From assembly GCF_021611515.1 (NCBI RefSeq), contig NZ_CP090960.1, positions 2,542,001-2,606,000 of the forward strand: a stretch of DNA of 64,000 bases. Direction: 5' to 3'. The notes under the pieces are model-generated. The model made no database searches, had not been told where the DNA came from, and saw nothing but the letters and a program-made list of their open reading frames with translations. Both the position numbers and the translations under genes were made by a program. This stretch comes from Mariluticola halotolerans. GTDB lineage: Bacteria > Pseudomonadota > Alphaproteobacteria > Rhizobiales > Devosiaceae. Below, one piece after another: positions 26,171 to 37,637 of the stretch; positions within the stretch are counted from its first letter, which is position 1; each line of letters opens with the position of its first letter.

Positions 26171-28654
26171 TCAGAAATCCCGCCAGTCCGGTTTGAGCGC
26201 GGTATTGCCACGGGTTTGGAGGTTTGCTGTCTCTGGCCGTTCCTGTCGGAAGGCGGTGGCGTCGGCATGAGATGCCGGGCTGGCTTCTGCGGTGTGGAGA
26301 CGGAAAATCTGGATAATCCGGTCCAGTTCCGCTGCCTGGGCTTCGGTTTTTTCGATGGCGGCATTGGTTTGCTGCACCAATGCTGCATTGTGCCGGGTCA
26401 TTTCGTCCATTTCCCGCACGACCGCATTGATATCGTCAATAGCGCCGGCCTGTGCCTTGGCGTCGTCGGCCATGCCGGTCATCAGGGTTGTGCTCTCTTC
26501 GATGCCGGCAAGCATGCTCGCCAGTTTGCCGGCGGATTCGGCGACAAGGGCGGAACCGTTTTTGACCTCGCCAACGCTTTGCTCGATCAAGACCTTGACC
26601 TCGTCGGAGGCGGTGGCGGCGGATTGCGCGAGGCGGCGCACTTCCTGCGCGACGACGGCGAAGCCCTTTCCGGCGTCCCCGGCGCGCGCGGCTTCCACGG
26701 AGGCATTGAGGGCGAGAAGATTGGTCTGGAAGGCGATATCGTCAATCATGCCGATAATATTGGAAATCCGGGCGCTGGACGCACTGATCTCGGCCATGGC
26801 CGCGTTGGCCCGCTCCATGACCTCGCCGCTTTGGCGGGCCGTCTGGCTGACCGCCTGCGATTTGGTGCTGGCAATATCGGCCTGCCCGGCACTGTGGCGC
26901 ACGGTGTCGGCCAGTTCGGCCATCGCGCCTGAGGTTTGCACAATCGTTGCTGCCTGCTTGCCGGTCCGTTCGGAAAGATCGCTGGCGCCGGTGAGAATTT
27001 CGGTCGTGGCCGTTTTCAACGTGCCCGAGGTGTCGCGCAACTGGCCGACGATTTCGGTCAGCTTGTCGGCCACTGCATTGGTGTCGTTTTTGAGTTTTGC
27101 AAATGCGCCGTCATAGTCGCCCGCGACACGGCGGGTCAGATCGGTTTCGGCAAGGGCGGCGAGCACGTGGCCCGTTTCGCCAATGCCGCGATCAACGGTT
27201 GCCACCAGATTGTTGATCGAGCCGGCAAGGCTGTTGAGTTCGGGGTCGGGAAATTCCACATCGACCCGCCGTGAAAAATCACCGGCCACGGCCGCATCGA
27301 CAACCTCGCCAAAGGCCTGTTGTAGGGCCTGCATCATCAGGGTGTCTTCTTCACGGCGCCGGGCCGCCGCGTCCCGTTCTGCCGCGTCGGTTGAATGATG
27401 CCGGATGCCGGTTTCACGGAAGCTTTCGAAGGCGCGGGCAATGTTGCCGAATTCGTCACCACGCCGTGCACCGCGCACCTCGACATCCAGATCTCCGGCG
27501 GCCAGCCCGGTTATCGCGTCATTGAGCCAGGCGAGGGGTTTTGTGATGGTGCGGGTCAGCAACAGGCTCAGGAGGGCTGCGAGCACTGCCAGCCCCAGTC
27601 CGGTAAGGATCAGGTTGTTGCGTATCGCAATGAGCGGGGCCAAAGCTTCATTCTCGTCCATCAGGGTGACAATGGCCCAGTGCTGCCCTGAAAACGCAAA
27701 CGGGACCGCCGCGACCAGACTTTTCATACCGCGATAATCTGCAGCGGTGCCCAGCGCTGAGGTGCCGGCGAGAGCGCTGGCGACGGCGGGATTGTTGAGG
27801 GTGACCGCCAGCATGTCATTGTCATCGGTGAAACCGGAATCATTGCGCAGTTTGAAATCGGTGCTGACCATCAGGGTTTCGCCGGTCTCCCCCAATCCGT
27901 TGCGGTCGGCCAGAAGGCTGTTGATCCGGGCAATGGGCAGGCGCACGGCAAGAACCCCGATGATTTCACCGGCATCGAATACGGGGGCAGCCATAAAACC
28001 GGCGGACAGCCCGAGAACCACTTCATAGGCGGCAAAATCGGCAAGGGTTACGGTGTCGGGGGCGCTGGCCGCGCGCGCGGCGCGGTAGGCTTCTCCAAGG
28101 GCTGTATCCCACCAGGGTTCGCCACTTTCAGCGAAATTGGTGGCGAAATCGGCGTGTTTATAAACCGAATAGACGAGCTGGCCCTCGGGATTGAACAGGT
28201 AGAGATCGTCATAGGCCCGGGTCCGGGCCAGCCGCAAAAAGGCGGGATGCTGCGCGGCGTGGGTCTGGTCATAGGCATCGTTTTCGCCGGAGGTTGCAAG
28301 CATTTGGCGCTGATCGGCGGGATGGGGATTGTCCTCGAGATAACGCTTTTGCAAGGCGCGGGTGGCATCAGTCCCAAGGGCCGCCCAGCCGCCATCGAAT
28401 GCGCTCACCGCATCAGCGGTCGTTGCCATGCCTGCAAGGATCATCAGGTCCTGGCTGACATTGGTCAGAATGTCGTTGAGCCCGGACGCTTTCTGCGCGG
28501 CGATGGTCTCCAGGTGCTCAAAGCTTCGGGTGGTGAGGGTGTCGGCCATCTGGCGATAGGCGGCGGTGCCCATGCCAGCACAAATCAGCACGGCACCGAT
28601 GATCAGCGTCAGGGGCAGTTTGCGCGCGAGGCGGACCGATGCGAAATTGATCAT
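26171..28654 (-). CDS. Methyl-accepting chemotaxis protein with dCache-like sensor
   Basis: Chemoreceptor of 827 residues. TM1 is at about 10-33, a large periplasmic sensor at about 34-345 contains [19 protein letters not shown] and [13 protein letters not shown] in a double-Cache-like arrangement, and TM2 is at about 350-372. HAMP segments follow, then the signalling hairpin with tip [23 protein letters not shown]. There is no obvious C-terminal CheR-tethering pentapeptide. The ATG at 28654 starts directly before TM1, with GGGAGAA upstream; 38 extra in-frame codons lack a signal and are rejected. It lies at the downstream end of the che cluster. Confidence 0.9.
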
Positions 28655-28825
28655 GCGAACCGTATTCTCCCTCGACCGCGCCCGGCTCGTGCCCGGGTGC
28701 AGCTGAAATGCGCGACAACGCCCTTGATTCGGCACAGGAATCGCCAGCATTGCCCATCGGGACGACACTAGTCGCGCAGGCGTAAATCTTTCTTAAACAT
28801 GATATTTAATGTCACTAAAGCAACG

Positions 28826-28881: not shown

Positions 28882-29271
28882 CTAGGACAGCGCGCCGATA
28901 ACCGCTTCGATGCGTTTTTTCATTGTGCCGGCATCAAAGGGTTTGATGATGTAATTATTGACGCCACATGCGATGGCTTCCTTGACCTGTTCCTTGTCGG
29001 AACGGCCCGTGGCCATGATGAAGGGCAGGGCGGCGGTGCGCGGATGTTTGCGCAAGACCTTGAGCAGGGTCAGCCCGTCAATATCGTCCATGTTCCAGTC
29101 GGATATGATCAGGTCAAAGCTGGCTTTTTCCAGCTTGGTCAGCGCATCCCGGCCGCTTTTGGCCTCTATGATATCCTTGAACCCGAGCTGGGTCAGAATA
29201 TACTTACAAATTCCGCGCATTGATTGCTGGTCGTCTACGATCAAGACACTGAGTGCACTGGCTTTAGGCAT
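28882..29271 (-). CDS. cheY2: Chemotaxis response regulator CheY2
   Basis: Single receiver domain of 129 residues. The acidic pair DD is in VLIVDDQQSM, the phospho-acceptor Asp in LIISDWNMDDIDG, the switch Thr in MATGRS and the Lys in IIKPF. The SDWNM tract is typical of motor-binding CheY. It follows cheB on the same strand after 94 bases, the place held by cheY2 in rhizobial che operons, where CheY2 is the main motor regulator. The number 2 and the motor role are assigned by position. Confidence 0.9.
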   Translation of the reverse strand: MPKASALSVLIVDDQQSMRGICKYILTQLGFKDIIEAKSGRDALTKLEKASFDLIISDWNMDDIDGLTLLKVLRKHPRTAALPFIMATGRSDKEQVKEAIACGVNNYIIKPFDAGTMKKRIEAVIGALS

Positions 29272-29365: not shown

Positions 29366-30412
29366 TCAGGCGGCCGATTTCATTTTAGAGAGCGCGTGCG
29401 CCAGTTTGCTGGCAATCGCTTCAATGGGGGCCTGTTCGCAAACGGCACCCTCCTCAAAGGCCACACGGGGCATGCCATAAACGAGGGCTGAGTTTTCGGA
29501 CTGGCCCACCGTATAGGCACCGGCGGCGCGCATCAGTTTCAATCCACGGGCACCGTCACGGCCCATGCCGGTGAGAATCGCGCCAACGGCCATGGGGCCG
29601 ATGGTCTTGGCGACGGATTCAAACAAAGCGTCAACACTTGGCCGATGGCCCGAGATTTCGGTGTCGTCCATAAGCCGGCATTTCAATTGTCCCGAACTGC
29701 GTTCCACGCGCAGGTGCTGGCCGCCCTTGGCGATATAGGCATGGCCCCGCTGCAAGGGCATGCGGTCTGCAGCCTCGACTACCTTGAGAGCCGAGAGATC
29801 GTTGAGCCGCTGGGCGAAGCGGCTGGTAAAGCCTGCGGGCATGTGCTGGGCGATCACGATGGGCGGGCAGTCCATGGGCATATTGGCGAGCACTTCGCGA
29901 ATGGCCTCAACTCCGCCGGTGGAGGCCCCCAGCGCAATCAGCGCCCCATCGGGGGCAGCGGCGGTGGTAACGTGAACGGCCGGTGCGGGGGCGCGCATGC
30001 CCCGGGACCGGGCGGCACTTGCGGCGGCGGCATGCACTTTTTCGCACACCTCAGCGCCAAAGGCGTCAATGCCACCGGCAAGATCGTGGCTCGGTTTGGC
30101 AACAAAATCGACAGCACCTAGTTCAAGCGCCAGCAGGGTTTCCTGGGCGCCCTGCTGGGTCAGGGTCGATACCATGACCACGGGCATGGGCCGCAACCGC
30201 ATCAGCTTGTCGAGAAAGGCCAGCCCGTTCATGTTCGGCATTTCAATATCAAGGGTCAGCACATCGGGATTGAGCTGCTTGATCTTCTCGCGCGCCTCGA
30301 TCGGGTCCTTTGCGGTGCCCACCACCTGGATTTTTGCGTCCTTGCCCAGCGAGCGGGTCAGCACATCCCGAATTAGCGCGGAATCGTCGACCACCAATAC
30401 TTTGACTGTCAT
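29366..30412 (-). CDS. cheB: Chemotaxis methylesterase/glutamine deamidase CheB
   Basis: Protein of 348 residues with an N-terminal receiver domain (acidic DD in VLVVDDSA, phospho-Asp in DIEMPNMNG) and a C-terminal methylesterase domain. The catalytic Ser is in ALGASTGGVEAI, the His in IAQHMPAGFT and the Asp in TGMGRDGARG, so the Ser-His-Asp triad is complete. It removes methyl groups from receptor glutamates when phosphorylated by CheA. It starts in a 4-bp ATGA overlap with the cheR stop. Confidence 0.96.
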   Translation of the reverse strand: MTVKVLVVDDSALIRDVLTRSLGKDAKIQVVGTAKDPIEAREKIKQLNPDVLTLDIEMPNMNGLAFLDKLMRLRPMPVVMVSTLTQQGAQETLLALELGAVDFVAKPSHDLAGGIDAFGAEVCEKVHAAAASAARSRGMRAPAPAVHVTTAAAPDGALIALGASTGGVEAIREVLANMPMDCPPIVIAQHMPAGFTSRFAQRLNDLSALKVVEAADRMPLQRGHAYIAKGGQHLRVERSSGQLKCRLMDDTEISGHRPSVDALFESVAKTIGPMAVGAILTGMGRDGARGLKLMRAAGAYTVGQSENSALVYGMPRVAFEEGAVCEQAPIEAIASKLAHALSKMKSAA

Positions 30413-31269
30413 GCTGCGTCTCGCTTCTTGCCTGCAATAGTTGATTGATAAATTGTTTTGCCGACCAGGGTGAAGGGGCCGCTGCCAGCGGCTATATTTT
30501 CCGAATGGCCGATATAAAGCATGGCACCGGGGGCCAGCATTTCGCCAAGGCGTGAAAACAATTGTGCCTGGGTTGGCTTGTCAAAATAGATTGCCACATT
30601 GCGGCAGAAAATCGCGTCAAACGGCCCGCGCATCGGCCAGGCTTCGTTGAGGTTCAGTGGCTTGAAAAACACCAGATTGCGAATGGCCTCGGGCACACGG
30701 ATCTTGCCGTCACCGGTGCGTTCGAACAGGCGGGCCCGTTCAGCACTCAGCCCGTTCAATTCAGATTCCGGATAAATCCCGGTTGCTGCCTTGGCCAGTA
30801 CATTTGTGTCGATATCGGTTGCCAGAATCTTGAAATCCCAGCGCTTGAGCTCTGGATAGGCATGCATCAGCGCGGCGGCAATGGTGTAGGGTTCTTGCCC
30901 TGTCGAACAGCCAGCCGACCAGATGCGTAGCCGCCGGGCGTTGACGCCCATATTCTGCTTTTCGGCAATCTGCCGGCCGATATAGTCCAGCAGGTGATCA
31001 AAGTGATGATCTTCACGGTAAAACCGGGTCAGGTTGGTGGTCAGCGCATTGACGAAATTCTGCTCATCGGCAGTGGTTGCCCCGCCGCGTTCGAGAAAGT
31101 CGACATAGGCATCAAAGCTGGGCAGGCGCAATGCGCGGATGACCTTGCTCAATCTGGAAACCACAAGGGTCCGCTTTGCATCGCTGAGAGAAATACCGGC
31201 GACCTTGTAAACGCGTCCCTGAATGCGCGCGAACTCGCGATCGCTCAGGGGGTATTCGCCGTTGTCCAT
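30409..31269 (-). CDS. cheR: Chemotaxis receptor methyltransferase CheR
   Basis: S-adenosylmethionine-dependent enzyme of 286 residues that methylates receptor glutamates. It has a small N-terminal helical domain and a Rossmann domain with the SAM motif SAGCSTGQEPYTIA near residue 118. The family strands FDAIFCRNVAIYFDK and GAMLYIGHSENI are also present. It overlaps cheB by four bases. No C-terminal TPR extension is present. Confidence 0.96.
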   Translation of the reverse strand: MDNGEYPLSDREFARIQGRVYKVAGISLSDAKRTLVVSRLSKVIRALRLPSFDAYVDFLERGGATTADEQNFVNALTTNLTRFYREDHHFDHLLDYIGRQIAEKQNMGVNARRLRIWSAGCSTGQEPYTIAAALMHAYPELKRWDFKILATDIDTNVLAKAATGIYPESELNGLSAERARLFERTGDGKIRVPEAIRNLVFFKPLNLNEAWPMRGPFDAIFCRNVAIYFDKPTQAQLFSRLGEMLAPGAMLYIGHSENIAAGSGPFTLVGKTIYQSTIAGKKRDAA

Positions 31270-31366: not shown

Positions 31367-32905
31367 TCAACGCTCAGCTATATTCAGTTCCTCTGCCTCA
31401 AAAGTCCGGTCAGCGTCCCCCGCCATGTTGGCTACATCGGTCTCAAAACGCGCGAGGCCAGTGCTGCCAGTGTCAAGGCTGTCCGCAACTATGCCGGTCT
31501 CATTACTTATATTCAGTAAATGTTCCTCAAGCCCCGAGATCAGTCCGGCCAGGGTTTCCACCTGGGCGGCGCTGTCACCGGATCCGGCATGGCCACGCTT
31601 GGCCAGATCCCTGATTTCCTTGGCAGATTTTGATGTGGAGGCCGCAAGTGTGCGCACCTCGTCGGCCACTACGGCAAAGCCGGCCCCCATGTCACCTGCG
31701 CGGGCGGCCTCGATGGCGGCGTTCAGCGCCAGGAGATTGGTGCGGAAGGAGACATCCTCGATGGCGGCAATCATGCTTTCAATCTGGGCGGTCAGGCCGC
31801 CGACCGCGCCAATGGCTTCGGCGGTGCGTCTGGCGGTGTCGCCAGCCTCGCCTGCCAGCATCTGCGCGTCGCGGCTGATTTCGGCAACCTTGCGGGCCGT
31901 TGTGCGGCTGGTGTTGAGGGTCGTACCAACCTCAATCGCCCCGGCCTGGGCCTTTTGCGCCATCTGGCCGATCCGGCTGATCGTTGCCCGATGGGCGTCC
32001 ACAAGCCTTGCGATTTCACCCAGTTTGCGTTCCAGCCCGGCGCGGCGTTCCGCTTCGTCAGCCCGGGCATGGGCCAGGCCCGAAAAGGCGTCGTGAACCG
32101 AGCGCACCTGAAGGCTCAGCCCGGCATTGACGGCGGGCATGTTGCTTTCGCCGGTCGCGCCATTTTGCACAATGCCGTCTATCGCCTGCATGCTGCGGTC
32201 GACCAGTTCAAGCCCGGCATTCAGTTCTTCAAGGGCCGGGAACAGACTGGTCTGTCCGGGGGGGAAACGGAAATCTGTCTGCCCGGATGCCAGGGCGTCG
32301 GTATAGGCGGTCAGATGGCTGCGGCCCACGATCAGGCCGGCGCGGGAAAAGCCTGCGGCGAACCGGTCACCGCCAAGGGGCACAAAGCCGCCATCATAGG
32401 GCCGGGCATTAAGGGTTACCCGCTGCTGGCTGACCCCATCCATTGGTGGCGATTTATAGGTGTCGCCGAAAACCGCGTGCAGGTTTGCGCCGGGTGCTAT
32501 TTCAGGATCAAGAGCGGTCAGCCCCGCGCTCACGAACAGTACATCGCCATGATTATCGGCGATCAATGCGGGCAGGTTGAGGCTGGCAAAGGCGGTTTTG
32601 AAGCCGGCGGCCCGTTCCAGCCGCAGGCAAAGGCTGGCGATCATTGCCTTGACGAATTCGGTCTCGCCCTGATGCACGCTTGCTGTAATTCCCAGCGCAT
32701 CGCCAAGTTCGGACAGGGTCTTGCGGGCCTTGCGGTCGGCCTGGTGTCCGACCAGCAAAAGCCCCAGACTGGCCATCAGCCAGATGCCGGCCGCCACGCC
32801 GATGCCCGCCGGGGTGAGGCCCAATGCGGCTATCGCCCCGAGGCTTGCCCCGAATACCGCAAGCGCGCACAGGCTGCCGCCGAGCGCTAGTGTGACCCGG
32901 CGCAT
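31367..32905 (-). CDS. Chemoreceptor with two N-terminal TM helices and no periplasmic domain
   Basis: Receptor of 512 residues encoded inside the che cluster upstream of cheR. Two close hydrophobic helices (about 7-30 and 34-54) leave almost no periplasmic loop. A cytoplasmic region (about 75-250) includes a PAS-like stretch [21 protein letters not shown]. The methyl-accepting hairpin has its tip [23 protein letters not shown] near residue 400. It probably senses an internal or membrane-linked cue. Its place in the cluster recalls IcpA, the cytoplasmic receptor of the rhizobial che operon; orthology is not established. Confidence 0.88.
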
Positions 32906-33059: not shown

Positions 33060-33650
33060 CTAGAACAATTCGATATCGTCGTGTGCGGGCACCGAGACCT
33101 TTTGTACGCCGGCAATGGCGATTTCTTCGCGTACAAGGTTGGCACCGGTTGCGCTGTCGAGCCGTTTGACGAACACGCGGCCGGAGGAGGGTTTAAACAA
33201 TACCCGTCGCGCGAAGGCACCGCCCACGTCCTGGGCGGAGGATTTATAACCCTCTGCCTTCAGGAATTCGCGAATGAATTCAATATTCTGGGCGCCGATA
33301 TCATTGAGGGAGGCATTGATATTGCCGCCGCCGAAAACCTTGATGTCGAGATTGGCCTTGTTGCCGCTGCCTTTACTGAGAACCGTATTGATCAGTTTTT
33401 CCATGGCAAATGCGCCGTATCGCGCGGATGCGCCATATCTGTCTTTTGCTGCGCCTGATTGTTCGGCGAGCAGAAAGTGGTTCATGCCACCTACCCCGGT
33501 GGAGACGTCACGAATGCAGGCGCTGATGCAGGATCCCAATACGGTTGAAAAGGTGACATCAATTGCGCTGGAAACATGACAGTCGCCCTGATGAATTGTC
33601 GTCACAACGCCGCGGTCGAATTCTGGCGGTAACGAGTCTTGCGATGCCAT
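33060..33650 (-). CDS. cheD: Chemoreceptor glutamine deamidase CheD
   Basis: Deamidase of 196 residues that converts receptor glutamines to glutamates, and in some bacteria binds CheC-type phosphatases. The catalytic Cys and His lie in LGSCISACIRD and GGMNHFLL, as expected for the family. The C-terminal half carries VFGGGNI and the long strand FVKRLD. The ATG at 33650 has AGGGG upstream; a TTG two codons earlier is unlikely. It lies 154 bases upstream of the receptor gene. Confidence 0.94.
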   Translation of the reverse strand: MASQDSLPPEFDRGVVTTIHQGDCHVSSAIDVTFSTVLGSCISACIRDVSTGVGGMNHFLLAEQSGAAKDRYGASARYGAFAMEKLINTVLSKGSGNKANLDIKVFGGGNINASLNDIGAQNIEFIREFLKAEGYKSSAQDVGGAFARRVLFKPSSGRVFVKRLDSATGANLVREEIAIAGVQKVSVPAHDDIELF

Positions 33651-33806
33651 CCGCAACCCCTAAATACAAACTCTGGACTTAAACCTAGTGAGAGAAACGT
33701 TAGGGAATTGCTAACCACGCCTCAAATCATCAACTAATTCACGCAGGCGCAAAGTCACGTTTACTATTTTTCGCGTAAAGTAGCTTTCGAACGTCAGGGA
33801 AGACAT

Positions 33807-34160
33807 ATGTCGCTTGAAAGACTAGCCAAAGAACTCGAAGAAACCGCCCGCCAGACATCGGTTATGGTTGAAGGGATAACAGACGCATTGGCCGTTCTCG
33901 CTGAATCGAGAGCGGATGCGGATGCCACCCGGGAACTTGTGGCTCAAAAGATTATTGTTGCTCTTCAGGGGCAGGACCGTATCGAGCAGCGCTGCCGGAA
34001 CATGGCGGAGGCTGTGCGGCATCTTGTTGCCTCTGACAGAAACATTGATCATGCGCGTTTCGACGAAATCTGGGCGCATCTGGCGCTTGACGAACTGGCG
34101 GTGCCCGAACTCTCGGGCATAGCGGGACGAACCCAGAGCGGTGAGGTTGATCTGTTCTGA
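33807..34160 (+). CDS. Candidate CheT/CheZ-like CheY-P phosphatase
   Basis: A mainly helical protein of 117 residues on the plus strand between cheD and cheW, both of which are on the minus strand. Around residues 54-64 it reads LQGQDRIEQRC, which contains Q-D-x-x-x-Q, the motif of CheZ, whose Asp and Gln are catalytic in CheY-P hydrolysis. A D-x-x-x-Q motif is also reported for CheT of Sinorhizobium meliloti. The C-terminus ends in acidic and hydrophobic GEVDLF, reminiscent in kind of the CheZ tail that binds CheY. The predicted helices flanking the motif fit a short helical hairpin. Function is inferred from motif and context; overall similarity to CheZ is too low to assert homology by eye. 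Confidence 0.72.
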   Translation: MSLERLAKELEETARQTSVMVEGITDALAVLAESRADADATRELVAQKIIVALQGQDRIEQRCRNMAEAVRHLVASDRNIDHARFDEIWAHLALDELAVPELSGIAGRTQSGEVDLF

Positions 34161-34182
34161 GCGGATCCGGTCTGTGTCATCA

Positions 34183-34214
34183 AAAAAAGCGCCGGCGAGG
34201 ACCGGCGCTTTTTT
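34183..34214. terminator. Bidirectional intrinsic terminator between the CheT-like gene and cheW
   Basis: The arms AAAAAAGCGCCGG and CCGGCGCTTTTTT pair perfectly around a CGAGGA loop. GC-rich stem and T tract are present on both strands, so it ends the plus-strand CheT-like transcript and the minus-strand cheS-cheY1-cheA-cheW transcript. The che cluster is therefore at least two minus-strand units. Confidence 0.95.
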
Positions 34215-34234
34215 GTTTGTTCTGCTGGCAGGGA

Positions 34235-34720
34235 TCAGGTTTCGATCTGTGCGCCGGCGACAACAGCATGCAGGTCGATCAGGCCAACCATCTGGCCATC
34301 ATGGGTGATGATGCCGGAAAGCAGATCGGTATCGATAGAATTGCCTTCAGGGACATTGTGAATGTCATCTTTTGAAATCGTCAGAATGTCGCTAACCGCA
34401 TCAACGAGAATGCCGACCCATTTTTCGCCCACGGACATGACCACGACCACATGGGTCTTGGTGGGGGAGGTCTGACCGTCGCCGAAGCGGGCGCGCAGGT
34501 CAAAGATCGGGACAATCGTGCCGCGCAGGTTGATCACGCCGACAACGAATTCGCGGGTATTGGGCAGGGGGGTTGCCCCGTTCCAGGCCCGGATTTCGCG
34601 GACAGTGGTGATTTCCACGCCATAAATCTGTTCGCCGATCGAGAAAGCGATCAGCTGCAGGCTTCTGGTCTCGGCGGCGTGGCCGTCATCGACTTCATTG
34701 TTTATTTCAAGCGCTTCCAT
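34235..34720 (-). CDS. cheW: Chemotaxis coupling protein CheW
   Basis: Adaptor of 161 residues made of one SH3-like CheW domain joining receptors to CheA. It reads LIAFSIGEQIYGVEITTVREIRAW at the start of the domain, then VGVINLRGTIVPIFDLRARFG, both typical. GAGGAA precedes the ATG. It is last in the cheS-cheY1-cheA-cheW unit, 24 bases after cheA and followed by a strong terminator. Confidence 0.96.
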   Translation of the reverse strand: MEALEINNEVDDGHAAETRSLQLIAFSIGEQIYGVEITTVREIRAWNGATPLPNTREFVVGVINLRGTIVPIFDLRARFGDGQTSPTKTHVVVVMSVGEKWVGILVDAVSDILTISKDDIHNVPEGNSIDTDLLSGIITHDGQMVGLIDLHAVVAGAQIET

Positions 34721-34744: not shown

Positions 34745-36850
34745 TTACGCCGCGTTCCTATGGGTGGTGGCCGTACGCAGGCCCTGAACATCCACGATGA
34801 GGGCGACATTGCCATCGCCCAGAATGGTGCCGCCGGCAATGCCGTCAATGCGTTCGAAATTCTCTTCGAGGCTTTTGATCACCACTTGCTGCTGGCCAAT
34901 AATGTTGTCGACAATCAGCGCAATCTTGACTGAACCTTCTGCTTCGCAAAGCACAGCGAACCGGTTTTTTTCCTCGATATCGGTATGCATTTCGAACCGG
35001 GTCGCCAGGTCCACGACCTGCACATATTCGCCCCGGACCTGCAGCACACGACCGCCGGTCGGCATATGGCCGAAATCGGCCCGCGCGCATTGCATGGTCT
35101 CCACGATCGAGGAGAGCGGGATGACATAGGGGCAGCCGCCCACGGTTACCAGCATGACATCGAGCACGGCGAGCGTCAGGGGCAGGCGCAGGGTCATGCG
35201 CGTGCCGGCCCCGGGCCAGGAGCGCACATGCACCGAACCACCGATCTTCTTGATATTGGAGAGCACCACATCCATGCCCACGCCACGGCCCGAAATATCG
35301 GAAACCTCGTCTGCCGTTGAAAAACCGGGGGCGAAGATCAGGTTGTCGATCTGTTCCTCGGTCATTTGCTGATCCGGGCCGACAACGCCGCGATCGCGGG
35401 CGATCTGGAGCACGCGTTCGCGATTGATCCCGGCCCCGTCATCCTCAACGATGATCAGGATATTGCCGCCGGCCTGTTCAGCGGAAAGACGGATAACACC
35501 GGTCTCGGGCTTGCGCCCGGCGGTGCGTTTTTCTGGCGATTCGATGCCGTGATCGGCAGAATTGCGGATCATGTGGGTGAGGGGATCGGATAATTGCTCG
35601 ATCACCGTCTTGTCGATTTCGGTGTTCTCGCCGACCATTTCGAGGCGGATTTTCTTGTTTGTCTTGCCCGCCAGTTCGCGGACCAGGCGCGGCATGCGCG
35701 AGAAGACGGATTTGACCGGCTGGGCGCGGATGGCCATCACCGAATCCTGCAGGCCGCGGGTGGTCTGGGCCAGCACTTCAAGGCCGCGCACCAGTTCCTG
35801 ATAATGGACCTTGAGATTGTCATCCATTTGCTGGGTCAGCATGGACTGGGTGATCACCAGTTCGCCGACCATGTTGACGACGCGATCCACCTTGTCGAGA
35901 TCGACGCGAATCGATTGCACGCCCACGGGGGCGGCGTTCTTGGCGTCACCCGCCTCGCTTGTGGTCTGGGCCGGGGCTTCGGCAGGCTTGGCCACCGGTT
36001 TGATCTCATTGGCGAGGTCGGCAAAGCTTGGCAGGTCGTCGTCATCAAGATCAAAGCCGGCATCGGCGGCGGGGGGTGCCTCGGACACGGTCTTGCGGGT
36101 GATCTTGATATCGCAATCACCATCAACGAATTCGAACACATCGCGTACGCTCTGCTCGGTCACGTCCGCGCCGGGCACCAGAATTTCCCAGCCGCAATAA
36201 ACGCCGAAAGGCTCAAAATCGCTGAGTGCGGGGATCTCCTTGAGGATCACCTTGATTTCCACGTCACCCAGTTCGGCCAGTTCACGCAGCAGCAAAAGCG
36301 GGTCGTTGGCGCGGGCATAGAGATCGCGATAGGGGGTGAATTCAACCAGCCAGCCCTCGGTCTCGCTGGCGGTGTCAGCCTCCAGATTGACGGCGACGGG
36401 GGTGAAATCGATATCGAATTCCTCCATCGGCTCCCCGTCTTCTTCCAGTTCCTCATCGCTTTTCGAGCCATTGCACAAAGCGACGAAACGCGCCTTTTCC
36501 TCAGCGCCATAATCGGATGCGAGCTCTTCGCCAGCCCGCGCCGCGGCGACGAAATCGGCGACGATATCGTTTGCCCGGATGCACAGCGCCGCCACTTCGT
36601 CGCTCATCTCCACCTTGCCATTGCGGACAAAGTCGAGAAGCGTCTCGAATTCATGGGCGAAGCCCACAAGGCCGGTAAAGCCGAAGGCGCCCGCGCCACC
36701 CTTTACCGAATGAATCGCCCGGAACACGGCATTGAGCCGGTCCGCATTGCGGTCACCTTCCTCGATCGCGGTGAACTGCTCCTCAAGCTCGTTCAAAAGC
36801 TCGGAACATTCATCGAAATAGGTGGCCTTGAATTCGTCGAGTTCACTCAT
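34745..36850 (-). CDS. cheA: Chemotaxis histidine kinase CheA
   Basis: Kinase of 701 residues that phosphorylates CheY1, CheY2 and CheB. The P1 domain has the phospho-His in AIHSVKGGAGAFGF near residue 47. An acidic variable P2-like region (about 120-300) holds several DD/EE runs. P3 dimerisation has VNMVGELVITQSMLTQQM. The P4 ATPase carries the N box HMIRNSADHGIESPEKR and the G boxes VEDDGAGI and GRGVGMDVV. A C-terminal CheW-like P5 ends near VDVQGL. All key residues are present. A long open frame on the opposite strand is a shadow. Confidence 0.97.
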   Translation of the reverse strand: MSELDEFKATYFDECSELLNELEEQFTAIEEGDRNADRLNAVFRAIHSVKGGAGAFGFTGLVGFAHEFETLLDFVRNGKVEMSDEVAALCIRANDIVADFVAAARAGEELASDYGAEEKARFVALCNGSKSDEELEEDGEPMEEFDIDFTPVAVNLEADTASETEGWLVEFTPYRDLYARANDPLLLLRELAELGDVEIKVILKEIPALSDFEPFGVYCGWEILVPGADVTEQSVRDVFEFVDGDCDIKITRKTVSEAPPAADAGFDLDDDDLPSFADLANEIKPVAKPAEAPAQTTSEAGDAKNAAPVGVQSIRVDLDKVDRVVNMVGELVITQSMLTQQMDDNLKVHYQELVRGLEVLAQTTRGLQDSVMAIRAQPVKSVFSRMPRLVRELAGKTNKKIRLEMVGENTEIDKTVIEQLSDPLTHMIRNSADHGIESPEKRTAGRKPETGVIRLSAEQAGGNILIIVEDDGAGINRERVLQIARDRGVVGPDQQMTEEQIDNLIFAPGFSTADEVSDISGRGVGMDVVLSNIKKIGGSVHVRSWPGAGTRMTLRLPLTLAVLDVMLVTVGGCPYVIPLSSIVETMQCARADFGHMPTGGRVLQVRGEYVQVVDLATRFEMHTDIEEKNRFAVLCEAEGSVKIALIVDNIIGQQQVVIKSLEENFERIDGIAGGTILGDGNVALIVDVQGLRTATTHRNAA

Positions 36851-36880: not shown

Positions 36881-37249
36881 TTAATGGACGACGCGCCGGA
36901 TGACGCTGATCAGTTTTTCCGGGTCAAACGGTTTGACAATCCAGCCCGTGCCCCCAGCCTCGCGGCCAAGATCGCGTTTTTCCTGGCTGGTTTCAGTGGT
37001 CAGAATGAGAATGGGCAGGCTCTGGTGCTGGCCCGAGGCCCGAACGTTCTTGATGAATTCAATGCCGTCCATCACCGGCATATTGATGTCGGTGATCACC
37101 ACATCAACGGTTTCGGTGTTCAGCACTTCAAGTCCCTTTTGGCCATCCTCGGCCTGCAAAACCTCAAAACCGGCACCTGACAATGTGTGGTGCAGCATGG
37201 CCAGAATGGTTCGGGAATCGTCAACGGTCAGTACACGCATTCTTCGCAT
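36881..37249 (-). CDS. cheY1: Chemotaxis response regulator CheY1
   Basis: Receiver domain of 122 residues. The acidic DD is in VLTVDDSR, the phospho-Asp in VITDINMPVMDG, Thr in LTTETS and Lys in IVKPF. The ATG lies within the upstream gene's TAATG. Its location between the STAS gene and cheA is that of rhizobial CheY1, described as a phosphate sink that drains phosphate from CheA and CheY2. That role is inferred from synteny; the domain itself cannot show it. Confidence 0.92.
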   Translation of the reverse strand: MRRMRVLTVDDSRTILAMLHHTLSGAGFEVLQAEDGQKGLEVLNTETVDVVITDINMPVMDGIEFIKNVRASGQHQSLPILILTTETSQEKRDLGREAGGTGWIVKPFDPEKLISVIRRVVH

Positions 37250-37539
37250 TATCCTTTCAGAATTGGCGCAAAGCTTTCGCCCAAGCCAAGTCGTGCAATT
37301 GCAGCAGTCATGGGGTCGCTGAGATTTAAGACATAAAAACTGGAATCATTGCGCCTGGCGGATTCAGCGGCGCTCATGAGCATAAGCAATGCATTTGTGG
37401 CGACGCGTTCGACGGCGGAGGCGTCTACCTCAACCGGTCCGTGATCGATGGCTTCAATCAATTGATCGCGCACCGTGTCGATAGCATCCAGATCGACAAT
37501 CGCTGGCAAGGCCAATGATTGCGCGGCTACGTCGCTCAT
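37249..37539 (-). CDS. STAS-domain protein, CheS-like
   Basis: Small protein of 96 residues that fits a single STAS fold: beta-alpha pattern with LPAIVDLDAIDTVRDQL and VEVDASAVERVATNALLML. Where phosphorylated anti-sigma antagonists have DSSG, this has ATNA, so serine phosphorylation is doubtful. It overlaps cheY1 by one base (TAATG). In Sinorhizobium meliloti a small protein encoded at this spot, CheS, binds CheA and speeds CheY1 dephosphorylation; synteny makes this the likely counterpart. An ATG at 37557 would add six residues. Confidence 0.8.
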   Translation of the reverse strand: MSDVAAQSLALPAIVDLDAIDTVRDQLIEAIDHGPVEVDASAVERVATNALLMLMSAAESARRNDSSFYVLNLSDPMTAAIARLGLGESFAPILKG

Positions 37540-37637
37540 TTGATGCACTACCCCCATTAATATGGGTGGGAGTTTGTCATCACAGTGGTTTACGAATTGC
37601 TAATGCCCACCGCAACTTGCACATGCAAATGCCATAT

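Follow-up and report, generated by a model that had tools for sequence, protein, structure and literature searches.

The small gene at positions 33807 to 34160 of the window (the whole stretch of 64,000 nucleotides of Mariluticola halotolerans DNA analysed here) is probably the CheT of its lineage in a divergent gene order, residues D57 and Q61 of its product being expected to end the chemotaxis signal by acting on CheY-P and its C-terminal tail to dock to a partner shared with CheD. Homology supports the CheT reading; phosphatase activity, the choice of CheY substrate and docking are all three inferred. CheT itself is a recently reported protein of S. meliloti, and passages of PMC12654446, which there describe Agbekudzi 2024, credit it with faster dephosphorylation of one of the two CheY-P and with binding to CheR, and name DxxxQ as its phosphatase motif. 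An excerpt of PMC8429497 reports a chemotaxis defect of S. meliloti cheT mutants, an excerpt of PMC13401364 merely names CheT, and DxxxQ together with the adjoining AxxFQ of CheZ is, as far as an excerpt conveys, the subject of PMC7750401.

The gene, its neighbours and its predicted product

As an earlier note on this DNA had described, a small plus-strand gene lies between cheD and cheW, divergent from the former and convergent with the latter (Table 1); the neighbours assigned by Pfam (cheD, cheW, a STAS gene, two cheY, cheR, cheB, cheA and two MCP genes) are all on the minus strand. The description of the gene as inserted backwards proved misleading, since its reversed position is constant across the family and it is therefore no recent insertion: in all 75 family loci, which comprise 50 distinct sequences and represent some genomes twice, cheD is found upstream and on the other strand. 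Where cheW is in range (53 of the 75 loci), it is convergent downstream without exception (53/53).

The gene had also been given a terminator of its own. There is indeed a terminator-like hairpin downstream, but because it stands between converging genes with an A run and a T run flanking it, it is likely, not proven, to be a terminator serving both the CheT-like gene and cheW. The RNA fold of 34160-34235 has a z of -2.46, and a simple terminator scan yielded one site, with an average of 0.9 in shuffles. Expression apart from CheA, a further claim, is made plausible by the orientation, divergent from cheD and convergent on cheW, although a scan of the region between cheD and the CheT-like gene found no sigma-70-like promoter site; this region is presumed to be the site of both promoters.

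Table 1. Features of the che cluster (positions in the window) and receptor-fused proteins in comparison loci (locus:positions)
Feature	Position	Strand	Details
cheY (cheY2 position)	28882..29271	-	PF00072
cheB	29366..30412	-	
cheR	30409..31269	-	
Cluster chemoreceptor	31367..32905	-	PF00015 E 2.5e-27
cheD, divergent neighbour	33060..33656	-	PF03975 E 1e-24; product ends DDIELF
Divergent intergenic region, cheD/CheT-like gene	33657..33806	.	150 bases
CheT-like gene	33807..34160	+	ATG at 33807, TGA 34158-34160; 117 aa
Candidate phosphatase motif Q56-D57-R58-I59-E60-Q61 (QDRIEQ), codons	33972..33989	+	
C-terminal tail EVDLF and stop	34143..34160	+	protein end GEVDLF
Terminator-like hairpin between CheT-like gene and cheW	34183..34214	.	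13 pairs; flanked by an A run and a T run, one on each side
cheW, convergent neighbour	34235..34720	-	PF01584 E 5e-37
cheA	34745..36850	-	
cheY (cheY1 position)	36881..37249	-	PF00072
STAS-domain gene in cheS position	37249..37557	-	PF13466 E 2e-13; same order in S. meliloti
Receptor-fused proteins	L080:4326-5450, L081:3909-5468, L082:4098-5357, L084:322-1449, L086:516-1793, L087:464-1741, L091:171-1268, L093:4511-5623, L095:59-1159, L097:210-1469, L079:4172-5215, L149:2435-3598, L150:2127-3386		
Named receptor-fused case	L178:1288-2529		WP_075382284.1

The open reading frame is real, and its 117-residue product carries, as first noticed, QDxxxQ (D57, Q61), which falls inside the second of three predicted helices (residues 2-33, 39-75 and 82-92). 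A structure model of middling confidence (pLDDT 73.3, pTM 0.58, residues 99-117 below 50) takes the form of a helical hairpin. On helix 2, the side chains of Q54, R58, Q61 and N65 are placed at 136-176 degrees from the hydrophobic face and that of D57 at 124; with I50 at 144 degrees the outward face also has a hydrophobic member, and Q56, at 24 degrees, is turned inward. In the model, the outward position of Q54, D57 and Q61 is what an exposed functional site would show. With respect to a CheZ-like hairpin, a hairpin is predicted, but fold searches returned generic helical hairpins only, with no Foldseek match at E<=0.001 (best 0.22), VIA-align matches at Z <= 9.2 to common helical hairpins, and no CheZ among the best 50 rows of either search. 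At the sequence level, Pfam and NCBIfam gave nothing above cut-off for the 117-residue protein, a PDB search nothing useful (best E 0.4) and a plasmid search no match.

Conservation of the motif and kinship to CheT

The motif is conserved among relatives: Q.[QE]D...Q is found in all 50 distinct relatives, chosen from the 75 loci by BLAST alone, and Q54, D57 and Q61 are each present in 50 of 50. As motif and tail patterns had guided the choice of the initial sets, it is these BLAST-chosen relatives that give counts free of that choice, and on such counts the DxxxQ of the CheT-like family is judged to be more than chance. Among CheT rows, partly motif-chosen, Q54, D57 and Q61 occur in 13 of 13, and L098 and L105, found by profile, have the motif as well. 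The residue preceding the Asp is I, L or V in CheT as against Gln in the CheT-like protein; S. meliloti CheT reads IDL where the window protein reads QDR.

Kinship to CheT is drawn from profile-profile alignment against decoys and from cluster content (cheD, two cheY and, where cheS would be, a STAS gene). The CheT set comprised 16 proteins, 11 picked partly by motif and 5 by position, and included the S. meliloti 'hypothetical protein' encoded between cheD and fliF, which we equated with the published CheT by position and description. Aligned by hhalign with a 49-sequence family set, the CheT set scored 43.1 (Prob 92.5) over 105 columns, end to end, with LQxxDxxxQ and the tail in register. 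The best decoys reached 17.5 (column shuffles, n=100), 23.4 (shuffles of seven-column blocks, n=100) and 14.3 (reversed). The score was 32.8 without the last eight residues and 32.5 with the motif masked, and when both motif and last eight residues were removed it fell to 21.8, the level of the decoys, so it is motif, tail and spacing in combination that carry the case. With G302, a genome of another family, added to the family set, the score was 51.5. A CheT profile run against the 5505 ORFs of the loci placed 18 CheT proteins first (E about 1e-25 or lower), followed by two family proteins (E 2.2e-5), the receptor-fused protein of L080 (3.8e-5) and then more of the family. With this profile the window protein itself reached E 0.03, and its relation to S. 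meliloti CheT is a profile-level comparison.

It is very improbable that an unrelated helical protein within the che cluster bears DxxxQ by chance. DxxxQ alone is common, and neither Pfam nor NCBIfam has a match over cut-off for the protein, but its conservation, its shared position beside cheD and the tail in common with CheD argue otherwise, and the CheT profile match with decoy controls already contradicts coincidence.

The divergent CheT reading accords with further points of likeness. S. meliloti CheT, like the window protein, is small, is encoded beside cheD, and has LQxxDxxxQ, a C-terminal L-rich segment and an acidic-aromatic tail (GDFEAF in S. meliloti); the two clusters have in common a STAS gene, two cheY, cheA, cheW, cheR, cheB and cheD. 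They differ in gene order, cheT of S. meliloti following cheD on the same strand whereas the window gene adjoins cheD but diverges from it. We take the divergent position to reflect a rearranged gene order and not a different protein family, the same-strand order being usual but not defining.

Distribution across the family and order

A genome scan yielded 20 relatives, 18 of them in Devosia or Pelagibacterium and two in 'Rhizobiales bacterium', and from these the profile A1 was built. A1 matches 125 of the 136 genomes of the family (Devosiaceae), that of the window's own organism included, and 114 of the 119 of good quality. Surveyed across the order, it matched 15 of 297 genomes: 13 of the family; G302 (E 1.6e-6), in which the gene is also divergent from cheD; and the dubious G336 (E 7e-4, a 655-residue frame with a stop), which was left out of the divergent-form count. 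Eleven of the 136 family genomes, some of them nearly complete, gave no match to A1 (G001, G049, G125 and eight more). In one further genome (G088:C1:1683520-1683869) the gene appears broken or misread, its match being split into two pieces that overlap (residues 1-83 and 81-117).

A C-terminal tail in common with CheD

All 50 distinct family sequences end in the strict tail [DE].[DE][LF]F, and the cheD product of the window has a tail of the same class, DDIELF. A looser pattern fits 75 of the 78 distinct CheD frames in the loci. The strict tail is found on 7 of 16 CheT proteins and 6 of 13 proteins in which the module is fused to a receptor (see below); the looser pattern occurs near the end of 15/16 and 13/13, respectively. 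Searched at the DNA level in its strict form, [DE]x[DE][LF]F plus stop, the tail pattern has six places in the organism's own genome, against four in a backwards control. Of the six, two have TGG where the stop should be and two belong to frames just 10 and 17 codons long, which leaves cheD and the CheT-like gene as the only gene-sized frames of the genome that bear it. This strict tail, common to CheD and the CheT-like protein, suggests a common docking site.

The pentapeptide of chemoreceptors is of the NWETF type. We do not claim the tail as such a pentapeptide: position -4 in the family is I, V, A, P or C, not aromatic. The GDFEAF end of S. meliloti CheT is closer to the receptor pentapeptide than the family tails are.

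Three arrangements of the module

Comparison of the sequences indicates that this is one module in three arrangements: divergent from cheD, as here, and in other Rhizobiales either after cheD or joined to the C-terminal end of a soluble chemoreceptor. Of the receptor-fused proteins, the three that were checked have PF00015. Their C-termini (e.g. L080, L082, L095) share with the CheT-like protein QFQDRxxQ, or carry QFQDLxxQ, and have an LGExR-like segment and a tail of the IELF/IDLF kind; the difference is that the module sits on an MCP signalling domain instead of being free. The named case comes from Methylobacterium oryzae, where its gene on plasmid pMOC3 has a STAS gene and a response-regulator gene as neighbours. 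In hhalign, the fused set scored 53.9 with the family over 61 columns that do not cover the tail (best block-shuffled decoy 41.4, n=50) and 41.2 with CheT (best of 50 block-shuffled decoys 25.5). Eleven of the 13 fused proteins lie within the 6-kb stretch around cheD.

In the order survey at E<1e-20, the fused form was found in 13 of 297 genomes and stand-alone CheT in 15, a cut-off that kept 13 of 30 and 15 of 18 genomes with any match, respectively; the weaker matches, which were dropped, come from large MCP-like proteins or are the family protein. Many of the surveyed genomes had also contributed sequences to profiles A2 and A3, which makes these hits partly self-hits, and with at most 13-15 candidates scored per genome the absences are provisional. 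No surveyed genome, the 14 with the divergent form included, had strong matches of two forms. The 49 genomes with CheD divide into 14 with the divergent form, 15 with CheT, 12 with the fused form and 8 in which none was found.

The fused proteins raise a different account of the window gene, in which it arose as, or works like, a detached chemoreceptor end, the C-terminal hairpin of soluble receptors serving as a structural part of the array. The 13 of 297 genomes of the order with a receptor-like protein that strongly matches the module at its C-terminus would fit such an origin, as would the tails of those proteins (all 13 of the looser kind, six strict) and the profile score with the family; that score, however, comes from the 61 tail-free columns, with shuffled decoys of the fused set reaching 41.4, and conservation of DxxxQ would need another reason. 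We regard this account as quite unlikely. That the fused forms, which may be no phosphatases, bear DxxxQ too weighs against the divergent CheT reading of the window gene.

Proteins of about 570-780 residues also match the fused-module profile (L145:1765-3465, L146:617-2329, L147:2064-3797, L148:789-3137, L151:778-2508 and L157:1266-3011) and end in DDGIELF, LDALMF, LDAFML, LDSLLF or LDIFF. This class was set aside: Pfam applied to three of them gave two marginal MCP matches and one none, the fourth protein in that scan being a CheZ. As a separate observation, among the genomes drawn, two of family f28 have CheD, G392 and G407 (L083, L092); they yielded no CheT-like module and no CheZ match, and their CheD lacks the tail, ending in SITLFRP and SSLPGRK.

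Relation to CheZ and the question of an adaptor

The identity first proposed was of a CheT/CheZ type, of which the CheT half is upheld by the controlled hhalign comparison and the cluster content but the CheZ half is not. The family aligned with CheZ at Prob 10.7% and a score of 25.5 (best of 50 decoys 19.1), and a Pfam scan of the 117-residue protein gave no match to PF04344 (CheZ). We do not claim homology to CheZ, the signal being weak, out of register for CheT (25.9; best decoy 19.2) and lost when G302 was added to the family (18.6); the receptor-fused set, at 23.6, scored below its best decoy (32.2). Like CheZ, the CheT-like protein has DxxxQ, which would lie on the second helix of a predicted hairpin, a disordered end and a C-terminal peptide; it is shorter than CheZ, its conserved tail is of another type, and it has no C-terminal peptide of the SQxEIDALL type that the aligned CheZ proteins show.

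A search of the organism's own genome returned no CheZ and no CheC match, and CheW matches fell in cheW and cheA only, as for one che system. Judged against CheZ and CheC, the CheT-like protein is therefore plausibly the only dedicated CheY-P phosphatase of the genome. Among 50 genomes, a CheZ match over cut-off turned up in 2 of the 29 that have a stand-alone form, 9 of the 13 with the fused form and 6 of the 8 with none; for stand-alone forms against the rest (2/29 vs 15/21) Fisher's test gives p 2.3e-6, genomes being taken as independent.

These counts bear on a reading in which the protein is a CheT relative devoid of phosphatase activity, an adaptor whose tail binds CheR or CheD's partner and tunes receptor modification, and hence adaptation. 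Passages of PMC12654446 report CheT in complex with CheR; CheD, an adaptation enzyme, bears the same tail and is encoded divergently next to the gene in all 75 loci. The conserved, outward Q54-D57-Q61 would nevertheless make little sense if it had no part in an active site, and most genomes with a stand-alone form have no CheZ match (27/29), so that we consider a pure adaptor improbable.

Proposed mechanism and significance

The catalytic Asp and Gln of CheZ are D143 and Q147. In the divergent CheT reading that we prefer, the small helical hairpin would use its second helix to bring D57 and Q61 to the active site of phosphorylated CheY, where CheY-P would be hydrolysed fast through these residues, as through D143/Q147 in CheZ, and the chemotaxis signal would end. 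The disordered tail, ending acidic-x-acidic-[LF]-F, would dock the CheT-like protein to a partner that CheD also uses, candidates being CheR, CheY-P or a part of the CheA-receptor complex. A broader and more tentative possibility is that the Rhizobiales CheT module and CheD possess a docking peptide in common ([DE]x[DE][LF]F for the family, looser elsewhere) that brings phosphatase and deamidase to one site, coupling signal ending and adaptation or making them compete, and that some lineages have built the phosphatase module into a chemoreceptor.

The divergent, family-wide form offers a second protein on which the DxxxQ mechanism can be tested; the three arrangements would all place the module near the receptor array, and the tail in common with CheD lends itself to a simple truncation test of the link between signal termination and adaptation. 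A literature search of titles and abstract starts, with subscription journals mostly outside it, listed among its matches no Devosia CheT, no receptor-fused CheT module and no tail common to CheD and CheT.

As to the chemoreceptors of the cluster, the C-terminus of the one encoded at 31367-32905 has neither the CheT-like module nor the tail. The MCP encoded at 26171-28768 has a HAMP domain, with dCache below its cut-off, and ends in DWRDF, which resembles a receptor pentapeptide tether.
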